A stretch of 29,105 bases of DNA. Source: a virus. Shown piece by piece: positions 24,789 through 27,694 of this stretch (position 1 is the first letter of the stretch; each line of letters opens with the position of its first letter). A model generated the notes under the pieces. The model did not search any database. It saw only the letters and a program-made list of their open reading frames with translations, and had not been told where the DNA came from. The stretch spans positions 1 to 29,105 of the IMG/VR virus record IMGVR_UViG_3300028027_000176; one strand, given 5' to 3'. A program made the translations under genes and the position numbers.

Positions 24789-24967
24789 TGACTTAAGTTC
24801 TCCACAAGATCAGTAAACGTAATACCACGCTCTTGACAGCGTTTACGCAACTTAATGATGGCTCTTTGTTGTATCGACTCAATCGTACAAACAGACACAC
24901 CCATTTTGTCAGCAATCTCTTGACAAGTCATCTCATAGTCTTCTGCGCTTAAAGGGTATTTAGTCAT
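24785..24967 (-). CDS. Sigma-70 region 4-like helix-turn-helix protein
   Basis: This 60-aa protein is almost a single helix-turn-helix of sigma region 4 type: SAEDYEMTCQEIADKMGVSV (residues 7-26), followed by CTIESIQQRAIIKLRKRC (recognition helix) and a short C-terminal helix. The order M/T-x-x-E-I-A-x-x-M-G-V-S-x-x-T-I-x-x-I is that of region 4, which contacts the -35 box. It lacks other sigma regions, so it may act as a regulator or anti-host-sigma factor. It starts inside the previous stop (ATGA at 24964-24967). Confidence 0.75.
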   Translation of the reverse strand: MTKYPLSAEDYEMTCQEIADKMGVSVCTIESIQQRAIIKLRKRCQERGITFTDLVENLSQ

Positions 24968-25290
24968 TTTCCCTCCGCAATAAACTTGTCCACAGCAGCA
25001 TCAATTTCCTCACCAATCATCCAACGCCATTCCGACATATCACCATTACAAGCAATCACCGATGGTGCAACAATCTTAGGATCGACATCCCATGATGCGC
25101 TCTTGAGCCAGCGATAACGCTCTGCATCAGCATAGACATCACGGTTATCTTGAATACGACCAAAGACATCCCGATTAAGGGTACGCAATCGGTCAATCTC
25201 CAAGCACAAGGCATTTATGTAGTTACGAGTAACAGAGTATTCGTCTGTCTTGGCATACTGCCGTGCTTTTTCTACTAAGTCGTTGTTCAT
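24964..25290 (-). CDS. Hypothetical protein with DAERYRWLK motif
   Basis: This 108-aa protein begins with a helical region (residues 1-45, VEKARQYAKTDEYSVTRN) and carries ADAERYRWLKSASWDVDPK (about 54-72), a pattern frequent in phage small proteins (DAERYRWLR), then ends MIGEEIDAAVDKFIAE. It starts at an ATG whose ATGA contains the stop of the helicase 3'-end remnant, suggesting that in the ancestral phage this gene directly followed the helicase. Function unknown. Confidence 0.72.
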   Translation of the reverse strand: MNNDLVEKARQYAKTDEYSVTRNYINALCLEIDRLRTLNRDVFGRIQDNRDVYADAERYRWLKSASWDVDPKIVAPSVIACNGDMSEWRWMIGEEIDAAVDKFIAEGK

Positions 25291-25361
25291 AGTGTGTCCT
25301 TTATTTCTAACATTCGTCCAGTTTTGCCATTATACAACAATGCACCACAGTTTCCAGTCAT
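25287..25361 (-). pseudogene. Orphaned second copy of the primase-helicase C-terminus
   Basis: Between the HNH gene and the next gene lies a 25-codon frame encoding a near copy of the helicase end: shared LYNGKTGRMLEI and DTL. From the ACT codon at 25358 the two ends align over exactly 23 codons without gaps, 18 residues identical. Thirteen of those 18 codons differ synonymously and the stops differ (TGA here, TAA in the helicase). An ATG overlaps the HNH stop, so a 24-aa peptide might be made. It is best read as the original helicase 3' end, cut off by the insertion. Confidence 0.82.
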
Positions 25362-25864
25362 TTACATTCTCCAGTGATGTACTTAATAAGATTGGTAGCA
25401 AGTTTTAACAATTCTTGTGGCGTGGCATTGCTTTTCATTGTGTTCGCTTTATTTGAAATTACCAAGATGTTTCCTTTCACATATCCTTTTGTTGGGTCTA
25501 TTCGGTCTAAACTAGCAGAATTGTCTTTAACAGTTTTTCTTCCTTCGGCAATATACAACTCAATACCAAGCAAGGGACAATGAGTCGGTATAACAATATC
25601 TGATTCCTCAATATTGAAATCCCATCCATACTTTTTCGCCCTTGCTCTTGCTCTGTTTAACATCCTGTTTACTGGCTTTCTGCGGTAATACTCTCGTCCT
25701 TTTTCTTGAATCAGCTCTCTGTTTTTATCTCGATACGCACGAACATTAGTTAAAACCTTATCCTTGTTTTCGTGATAGTACTCTGTTGCTTGTTGTTTGA
25801 CTTTTTCTTTGTTTTTAGCATAATAAGCCTGATTGTAAGCGTGTCTTTGTTCTTTAGAAACCAT
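25358..25864 (-). CDS. HNH-type homing endonuclease
   Basis: This 168-aa protein has a basic, Tyr/Lys-rich N-terminal half with repeated YY-x-x-NK-x-KV elements (residues about 10-60), probably DNA binding, then RARAKKYGWDFNI and a nuclease block: THCPLLGIEL, SLDRIDPTKGYVKGNILVIS and NKANTMKSNATPQELLKL. The SLDRID..KGY..GN signature marks a phage HNH endonuclease group found as free-standing or intron homing enzymes. It has its own promoter and a strong AAGGAGG site 4 bases before the ATG. It lies between two copies of the helicase 3' end. It probably cuts a helicase allele that lacks the insert. Confidence 0.85.
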   Translation of the reverse strand: MVSKEQRHAYNQAYYAKNKEKVKQQATEYYHENKDKVLTNVRAYRDKNRELIQEKGREYYRRKPVNRMLNRARARAKKYGWDFNIEESDIVIPTHCPLLGIELYIAEGRKTVKDNSASLDRIDPTKGYVKGNILVISNKANTMKSNATPQELLKLATNLIKYITGECK

Positions 25865-25992
25865 AAATCCTCCTTAAAACACCATTATATACTAAAAAAC
25901 ACGCCATGTCAAGAACTATTTTAAAGAGTATCCACAATCTCAAGCATCCTGCCTGTTTTGCCGTTGTAAAGAATATTGCCAGCAGGTCCAGT
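25359..25992 (-). mobile_element. Putative homing-endonuclease cassette with replacement helicase C-terminus
   Basis: The unit holds, in - strand order, the present last 23 helicase codons, a stop, a consensus promoter, an HNH endonuclease gene and its stop. ACTGGA occurs at both junctions (25987-25992 and 25353-25358). Deleting these 634 bases joins helicase codon ACT in frame to the remnant and restores a complete helicase whose TGA overlaps the next ATG. No group I intron core has room in the 56-bp non-coding part. Boundaries are inferred from alignment of the two C-termini. Confidence 0.6.
25884..25912 (-). promoter_or_regulatory. Perfect-consensus sigma70 promoter for the HNH gene
   Basis: On the - strand, TTGACA (25912-25907), a 17-bp spacer and TATAAT (25889-25884) match the bacterial housekeeping consensus at all 12 positions. 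Transcription would begin near 25877 and reach the HNH start at 25864 after a strong ribosome site. It lies wholly in the 56-bp gap created by the insertion, giving the endonuclease host-polymerase expression independent of the phage operon. Confidence 0.88.
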
Positions 25993-27516
25993 AAAGCCCG
26001 AATGTCGGTTCTTGAGAACCCGTACAGATGTGGTATTGCGCTCAATCATATCTTCTGCTTGACCGTTACGCTCGAGTCCAATCACCATATCGGATAACTG
26101 GGCAATCGCACCGGAACCCCTAAGCTGTGATAGCGATGTTGCTGCCCCTTCTTCGTGTCCACGGCTTTCAGGTCTTTTCAGATGACTGACACAGATCAGG
26201 CTAATTCCTGTTTCCTGCACCAGCATACGCAACTTAGTCATGATGGAATCGATAGCCTTGCGTTCATCACCAGCATCACCGCCACTAACGATAATGCTAA
26301 TGTGGTCAAGGAAAATGTAACCACAATTAAGAGCTTTCGCCATATACCGCACTCGATTGATAATATTTTCCAAAGAAGTGCTACCAAAATGGTCAAACAG
26401 GTAAACACGGTCACTTCCCAAAGTTCGATCAAAAGCATCTTTTAGTTCCTCCGCCGTTACTTCTACATCAGGTAAATGGATTGGTTTGTTTACTGCTAAG
26501 GACATCAACGAACGAGCTGTTTTTCGTACACCTTCTTCAAGAAACATAAGTCCGATGTTGTCATTGGTTTTACATAAGATGTGCCATACAATTTCTCTAA
26601 GAAACTGAGATTTACCGAGTCCGCTTCCGGCTGTGACCATGACCAGCTCACCCTTCCTGATTCCGTAGGTGAGTTTATTGAGTGCTTCGTATGGATAATC
26701 ACAATCAGCTTTCTCGATAGGAGCTGACACCATATCCCAGAGGGTATTACCTTGAATAATTCCATCAGGGACATAAGCCTCAGCACCCCACCAACAATCA
26801 ATAAATTCTTTACCTGCACCATGTGCCAAATAATCACACGCATCTTTATATCCTTTCCTATGCTTCATTACCTTCACTTTACCGCCAAAGAGTTCAGCAA
26901 CAGCTTGTGAAGCCTTTTGACCTGCTTCATCGGCATCAAACGCTAAGACAATATTCTCGAATGAGTCAATCCATTCATACTGTGCCTTACAGTCCTTTAA
27001 AGCGGCTGCTGCGCCGTTTCTAACACTAACGCAAGGGTACTTGCTACCTTGCATCTGATAAGCCGCTAGAGCATCTAGTTCGCCTTCACAGATAGTAAGG
27101 TAGCGACCTGCTTTAGCAAACAGTTGCTGTCCGAACAGAGTAGCGTGGTTAAAGTCACCCGCAATGGTAAATTGCTTGTTTGCTACATCTCTAGTTTTGA
27201 TCGCAGATAGAGTGCCGTCAGCATCATAAAACGGGTAGTAATGCTTTCCAGTAACTTGCTTAACCCCGTAACTTAGGCAAGTAGCCTGAGTAATACTACG
27301 GTCAGCGATATTAGTAATAATAGCAGTGTCATAAAATTGTATATCCTTGTTCATTGGTTTAACTGCCTTCATTGTTGTTGTTTGCCCATCGCCTGATTCG
27401 TGTGTGTGGCACACATGACAATAGGTATGCCCATCATCATAGAGCGAGTTCCCATCGCTACTGCCACACGCATCGCACGGAATGTGCTTAACGAATTTGC
27501 TGTTAGAAACTGGCAT
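25921..27516 (-). CDS. Primase-helicase (T7 gp4-like)
   Basis: This 531-aa bifunctional enzyme (from the ATG at 27516; a TTG two codons earlier also fits) makes primers and unwinds the fork. It has a zinc-binding motif C14-x2-C17...C33-x2-C36, a TOPRIM primase domain with CEGELDA (E144) and AFDADEAG (D193, D195), then a RecA-like helicase: Walker A TAGSGLGKS (about 295-303), a catalytic Glu in LMFLEEGV, Walker B YIFLDHISI, and SHLKRP and QLRGSGAIAQLSD. Length is close to T7 gp4. The C-terminal 23 residues appear to have come with the downstream HNH cassette. It overlaps the upstream small gene by 14 bases. Confidence 0.93.
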   Translation of the reverse strand: MPVSNSKFVKHIPCDACGSSDGNSLYDDGHTYCHVCHTHESGDGQTTTMKAVKPMNKDIQFYDTAIITNIADRSITQATCLSYGVKQVTGKHYYPFYDADGTLSAIKTRDVANKQFTIAGDFNHATLFGQQLFAKAGRYLTICEGELDALAAYQMQGSKYPCVSVRNGAAAALKDCKAQYEWIDSFENIVLAFDADEAGQKASQAVAELFGGKVKVMKHRKGYKDACDYLAHGAGKEFIDCWWGAEAYVPDGIIQGNTLWDMVSAPIEKADCDYPYEALNKLTYGIRKGELVMVTAGSGLGKSQFLREIVWHILCKTNDNIGLMFLEEGVRKTARSLMSLAVNKPIHLPDVEVTAEELKDAFDRTLGSDRVYLFDHFGSTSLENIINRVRYMAKALNCGYIFLDHISIIVSGGDAGDERKAIDSIMTKLRMLVQETGISLICVSHLKRPESRGHEEGAATSLSQLRGSGAIAQLSDMVIGLERNGQAEDMIERNTTSVRVLKNRHSGFTGPAGNILYNGKTGRMLEIVDTL

Positions 27517-27694
27517 ATTCAAATCCAGTAGAAAGCTCTACCTCCATATCTCCAAAATCTTCCTCTTTGATGTCGGTAGGCGATAAGTTCTCAGCCATAA
27601 TAAAGCAATCTTCTTCGGTGTCACCGTAGCAACTCACATAGTAAGTCTTAGTAACTTTAAAAACTGCTGTCAATCCTTTTGGTGCTGTTCTCAT
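27503..27694 (-). CDS. Small hypothetical protein
   Basis: The start is placed at the ATG at 27694, which has GGAG 6 bases before it; an earlier ATG (27706) lies inside the upstream gene. The 63-aa protein reads TAVFKVTKTYYVSCYGDTEEDC, a beta/alpha pattern, and ends in an acidic segment with FEYASF. It overlaps the helicase start. A two-strand-one-helix fold with unknown role is likely; no family recognised. Confidence 0.65.
   Translation of the reverse strand: MRTAPKGLTAVFKVTKTYYVSCYGDTEEDCFIMAENLSPTDIKEEDFGDMEVELSTGFEYASF

Follow-up and report, generated by a model that had tools for sequence, protein, structure and literature searches.

The window analyzed here, a 29,105-nucleotide stretch of viral DNA (IMG/VR record IMGVR_UViG_3300028027_000176, positions 1 to 29,105), encodes on its minus strand a primase-helicase (27522-25921) whose last 23 codons are present twice, one copy on each side of an HNH-type nuclease gene. 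The helicase body (26005-27522; Zn ribbon, Toprim and DnaB_C) matches Pfam DnaB_C (1.6e-24) and Toprim_2 (1.1e-11) as well as PHROG 239, primase/helicase (7e-184). It continues in frame into a 3' end (25921-26004, minus strand; HSGFTGPAGNILYNGKTGRMLEIVDTL, stop codon TAA) that nucleotide identity and clustering with other nuclease-linked ends mark as rewritten; the attached C-terminus reads TGPAGNILYNGKTGRMLEIVDTL. On the same strand, the space between the helicase stop and the nuclease holds a predicted consensus sigma-70-type promoter (TTGACA-17-TATAAT, 25884-25912) and a predicted AGGAGG ribosome-binding site (25869-25874), followed by the nuclease ORF itself (25864-25358, 168 aa; PHROG 3322, endonuclease, 4.5e-37). 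The cassette closes with the displaced native helicase 3' end (25361-25287, minus strand), an ATG followed by TGNCGALLYNGKTGRMLEIKDTL and a stop codon. This remnant shares an ATGA with the nuclease gene, its ATG overlapping the stop codon there, and its TGA in turn overlaps the start of the following gene (24964-25290, minus strand). Where the helicase is uninterrupted, that gene lies directly 3' of it, and in most of the closest relatives an 88-97% identical protein overlaps the helicase stop.

The two helicase ends align without gaps and share 18 of 23 residues, 13 of which are specified by different codons, and their stop codons differ (TAA in the attached end, TGA in the remnant). When the two flanking sequences of each of 169 nuclease loci were translated and compared, the window pair scored 91; among 400 mismatched flank pairs, the highest score was 78 and the 99th percentile lay at 66. 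The duplicated C-terminus that the first-pass annotation described around the HNH gene is thus borne out, and the same arrangement is found on an independent contig (L002). This contig is 100% identical to the window over more than 3 kb around the cassette and approximately 82% identical upstream, beyond a breakpoint within the helicase; such a pattern would fit transfer, and an assembly chimera could be an alternative.

Phage HNH and EndoVII-like nucleases are often intron-encoded (PMC6083498), which raises the question of whether splicing, by a group I intron or another element, joins the helicase body to the downstream copy in the mRNA, with the attached end as a fallback. Apart from the nuclease ORF, however, the insert consists only of a spacer of ~57 nt, leaving no room for an intron core, and the ORF passes directly into the remnant. 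The window has no Rfam match, and the attached end keeps the reading frame and is conserved. We consider splicing extremely improbable.

A structural model of the window nuclease was obtained with a pLDDT of 93. Its nearest solved fold is the PacI HNH endonuclease (probability 1.00, E 4e-3), followed by other HNH nucleases, and it has PHROG endonuclease/HNH matches; Pfam yielded no match, nor did a PDB sequence search with the nuclease profile. The motif comprises D120-R121 with N132/N141 and lacks a D-H pair. Because the canonical HNH histidine after the conserved D120 is replaced by arginine, nuclease activity is uncertain. Residues 4-79 are modeled as five successive helices of 14-16 residues each, and this N-terminal half is possibly a modular DNA-binding repeat. 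Among HNH family members, nine loci (L087, L090, L092, L096, L098, L120, L136, L137 and L143) share a near-identical C-terminus (FAYWVILTYGHLIDKEIS-like) and differ in their N-terminal parts; the common terminus may have been captured site-specifically or may reflect an overlap shared downstream. The promoter preceding the window nuclease matches the consensus at 12 of 12 positions, which none of 500 resampled sequences equaled or bettered. Perfect TTGACA-17-TATAAT elements precede the nuclease in four cassettes (the window, L038, L049 and L101), with 11/12 matches in L015 and L086; by the same consensus-match measure, we found no promoter in L083, L112, L173, L182, L121, L153 or MW202701.

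To establish which helicase end is native, we turned to the 80 relatives returned by a search of viral contigs. In 63 of these, the helicase 3' site is uninterrupted, as predicted for the locus after removal of the cassette. The helicases of the closest uninterrupted relatives terminate in TGNCGALLYNGKTGRMLEIKDTL, as the 25287-25358 copy does, and lead straight into the 25290 gene, mostly by a TGA/ATG overlap; no relative without the HNH gene combines the present helicase end with a 25287-25361 copy. At the DNA level, the window remnant is 0.89-0.97 identical to the helicase ends of uninterrupted relatives. For the attached end (last 29 codons), identity to intact relatives drops to 0.54-0.62, against 0.82-0.87 for the helicase bodies. 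Since it is the remnant and not the attached end that matches uninterrupted relatives, the native copy is the one downstream, and the attached one was brought in by the cassette.

The boundary of the rewritten tract is less sharp than initially proposed. The hexamer ACTGGA, proposed to mark both junctions, is not a clean mark: native genes read ACTGGC or ACTGGT at this position, another ACTGGA is found close to the HNH ORF's 3' end, and rewriting begins at least four codons upstream (native FSGY versus HSGF). In addition, the last ~420 nt of the window helicase are more diverged than the preceding sequence (best relative 0.78-0.90 per 60 nt, versus 0.93-1.00 before).

Separate trees of helicase ends and bodies are in strong conflict. 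For 49 helicases, a tree of the terminal 96 nt places all eight nuclease-linked ends in a single clade (support 97/89), which nests inside the helicase family rather than outside it. In the helicase-body tree, nuclease linkage requires eight changes, and a single clade is rejected (p-AU 8e-40). By these trees, helicase ends travel with nucleases, across two unrelated nuclease families, although the tail tree comprises 96 columns and parallel avoidance of native codons could contribute to the clustering. Together with the native ends of relatives, the conflict supports the proposal that the cassette carries a replacement gene end. It disfavors a tandem duplication in place upon nuclease insertion, in which the attached copy would have drifted without any foreign end being introduced. 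Such an origin would be consistent with the 78% identity that the two ends retain at the protein level and with the nesting of nuclease-linked ends within the helicase family, but ends from diverged helicases form one clade where their bodies do not, and relatives match the remnant instead of the attached end. Including the gene 62 data described below, we regard tandem duplication as quite unlikely.

The second nuclease family at this site is EndoVII-like (CxxC ... HVDHDH ... VRGLLCxxCN, with DHCH in L081). Such a gene occupies the same helicase position in six relatives (L015, L020, L027, L036, L038 and L081), all of which have a rewritten helicase end with a TAA stop. In the first four, the last codons of the nuclease (KDTL followed by the stop) coincide with the final ~14 nt of the native helicase gene, and the next ATG is still overlapped. 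More distant helicases also carry HNH or EndoVII-like genes here (L083, 60% amino acid identity; L086 and L112, ~44%; the deposited genome MW202701, 47%). The closest relatives of the window HNH protein (63%; L082-L084) follow helicases only 60% identical to that of the window, and their last codons (GDVL followed by the stop) agree with those that end the attached helicase copy. In L086, the HNH protein carries an in-frame fusion to a helicase-like end, NTGRMVEVTMEEL, while in MW202701 an EndoVII-like gene is followed by the helicase end GPACALLYNKDTGRMFETEDV, the two ends aligning weakly (score 48). As with free-standing homing endonucleases, a nuclease gene is therefore present at the same site in otherwise diverged genomes.

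Inserts without a nuclease provide a point of comparison. In five relatives (L003, L019, L022, L023 and L034), non-nuclease genes are found at the helicase stop, and the native end is kept. A small gene of ~60 aa (MSMKLTDILI...IPVYN) lies at the junction in L003 and L038; because it is inserted with or without a nuclease, the helicase junction appears to be an insertion hot spot. In L019, L022 and L023, the unchanged native end is directly followed by a gene of ~730 bp whose start is PAPS-reductase-like (VISWFSCGAASA). Two further relatives (L017 and L025) have chimeric ends, with a first half rewritten in the EndoVII-linked manner and a second half native, next to small ORFs and no nuclease. 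Adding these to the tail tree yields a nuclease-linked clade with 100/100 support, and they are possible products of partial conversion or nuclease loss.

Related arrangements are found in other genes. Four T4-like contigs (L121, L130, L152 and L153) carry an HNH gene of the same family in gene 62 (clamp loader), identified by sequence and by a gene order of sliding clamp-like gene, clamp loader, gene 62 and regA. Here a full gene 62 is followed by the HNH gene, a native remnant of ~60 codons and then regA; the other gene 62 relatives that we retrieved have no insert. Comparison of L121 with L130 reveals one cassette in two diverged backgrounds: the attached ends are 97.2% identical and the promoter region with the HNH gene 98.5%, as opposed to 75% for upstream sequence, 87% for the 5' part of gene 62 and 89% for the remnants. 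Attached ends 97% alike beside differing native remnants are difficult to reconcile with tandem duplication in place. Uninterrupted ends match the L121 remnant at up to 99% identity. In this contig, synonymous changes affect every one of the seven codons beside the insertion point, and the 15 codons that follow are unchanged.

This last pattern also bears on a reading in which only general recombination has acted, the nuclease lying at a mosaic boundary and the changed end being a footprint that serves neither immunity nor rescue. Nuclease genes are known at boundaries of phage genetic exchange (PMC10448857), and the ~420 nt of raised divergence upstream in the window would be in keeping with this. 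Against it, the changed end invariably codes in frame and stops right at the nuclease, it remains nuclease-linked across lineages and is not linked to the five other inserts, and in L121 seven synonymously altered codons at the insertion point precede 15 identical ones. General recombination by itself is in our estimation an unlikely account.

A similar but more diverged pattern is present at the end of an ATP-grasp-like gene with an HNH nuclease (L101); its score of 62 is below the null 99th percentile, making this case weaker. Gene starts can show the mirror image, with EndoVII-like nucleases and scores of 80-96. In L049 (3469-4054), where the affected start is that of a helicase of this family, a remnant (MTDSKYLKHIPCESCGSS) is followed by a perfect promoter, the nuclease and a full helicase with a different start (MSENRFLKHIPCQSCGSS). 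The others affect the start of a terminase-like gene (L173, 2690-3358; MADLNFSLLPWQQ) and of an ASCH-like gene (L182, 2644-3362; MRALTLTQPWAG). The supporting loci are mostly metagenome contigs. By the flank test, we detected no clear duplicated gene ends at 20 nuclease loci from isolated phages and one fosmid genome (L320-L340 without L330; T7-like and other phages with EndoVII or HNH neighbors), and the pattern therefore characterizes a subset of phage nucleases, not all. Within this set, the score of 66 for L336 reflects low-complexity sequence and no gene end. High scores in the GC-rich loci L206, L209 and L213-L225 likewise represent low-complexity matches, and eight loci in which the helicase is far from the nuclease (L094, L097, L105, L107, L115, L157, L236 and L237) were not counted as cases. 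Roseobacter phage CRP-7 (L340, 109-2727) has two ORFs, each annotated as adenosylcobalamin-dependent ribonucleotide reductase, with an HNH gene between them; this pair is a split or intron-bearing gene.

We consider it very likely that the locus is a homing-endonuclease cassette, one that inserts into the final codons of the primase-helicase gene and supplies a functional replacement for them. The nuclease would cut or nick the native end in a co-infecting phage lacking the cassette, and the cassette-bearing genome would serve as the repair template. Homology for this repair would come from the helicase body on one flank, and on the opposite flank from the native remnant together with the gene downstream. 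As a recoded end arrives with the cassette, the recipient's helicase reading frame would stay intact. The target site is probably lost in the carrier, through recoding on one flank and interruption on the other, which would render the carrier immune. The remnant preserves the ATGA in which its stop codon overlaps the start codon of the following gene, and with it a putative translational coupling. The rewritten end would probably keep the essential gene working while resisting the nuclease; it may have been borrowed from another phage or recoded under selection in the cassette lineage.

Beyond this helicase, the terminus-replacing architecture recurs at further phage genes, associated with nucleases of two unrelated families. 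We lean toward the view that phages harbor a general class of terminus-replacing homing cassettes, with at least two nuclease families at the 3' or 5' ends of essential genes. Recoding in this class would be an evolved self-immunity that allows conserved coding sites to be used without an intron or intein, and different nucleases could take over one recoded end. A cassette of this kind would explain mosaic gene ends adjoining phage nucleases, and it offers a directly testable model of self-immunity by recoding in which comparison of the recoded tail with the native remnant makes nuclease target sites readable from sequence. For annotators, short helicase or clamp-loader fragments after nucleases can be recognized as displaced native ends.

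Homing nucleases in essential genes normally survive by splicing, as in introns and inteins, or by lying between genes. Carrying along a recoded gene end represents a third way, known from fungal mitochondria; we found no phage precedent in PMC full text. In T4 gene 60, mobA and a bypass sequence form a nuclease-linked insertion in an essential gene that is rescued by ribosomal bypassing. The cassettes described here are alike in pairing a nuclease-linked insertion with a device that rescues the gene product, and differ in that the device is a replacement coding end.

T4 SegF, SegG and MobE are free-standing homing endonucleases that mediate intronless homing (PMC2988022). They resemble our cassettes in that the nuclease gene adjoins an essential gene whose site is intact in relatives, and differ in lying between genes or splitting them; the keyword-matched passages of this review contain no description of a rewritten terminus with a displaced remnant. 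According to PMC12724721, donor resistance of such endonucleases is ascribed to sequence difference near the cut. Nor do the keyword-matched passages of the phage reviews and surveys PMC2988022, PMC10448857, PMC12724721 and PMC2993671 describe such cassettes. In the collaborative homing of F-CphI at psbA of cyanophage S-PM2, a nuclease with an EndoVII motif (DHHRN) likewise lies next to a resistant gene, but resistance there is conferred by a group I intron and here apparently by recoding (PMC6083498).

The closest counterparts are the mORF gene hybrids of fungal mitochondria, reported for atp6 of Allomyces macrogynus, atp6, atp9, cox2 and nad3 of Glomus sp., atp9 of Rhizopus and cox2 of Mortierella (PMC3630166), making the Allomyces analogy drawn in the first-pass annotation an apt one. 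In these hybrids, an endonuclease ORF in the 3' part of a conserved gene comes with an in-phase replacement C-terminus and the native end is left behind; the native end is near that of relatives, and the attached end has diverged mainly at synonymous sites (PMC3630166). The window likewise has an endonuclease ORF inside the end of a conserved gene whose native form exists in relatives, and it shares the in-frame replacement terminus and a displaced end closer than the attached one to uninterrupted relatives; gene 62 agrees with it in the interrupted gene end and in the closer match of the displaced end. The fungal nucleases, however, are LAGLIDADG or GIY-YIG enzymes of organelles, whereas those described here are HNH-type and EndoVII-like, reside on phage contigs and in several cases have their own promoters. 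Phage cassettes also occur at gene starts, whereas PMC3630166 reports C-terminal duplications and makes no mention of N-terminal ones. Because the nuclease families differ, we view the phage cassettes as a counterpart that works alike rather than as members of the mORF group.
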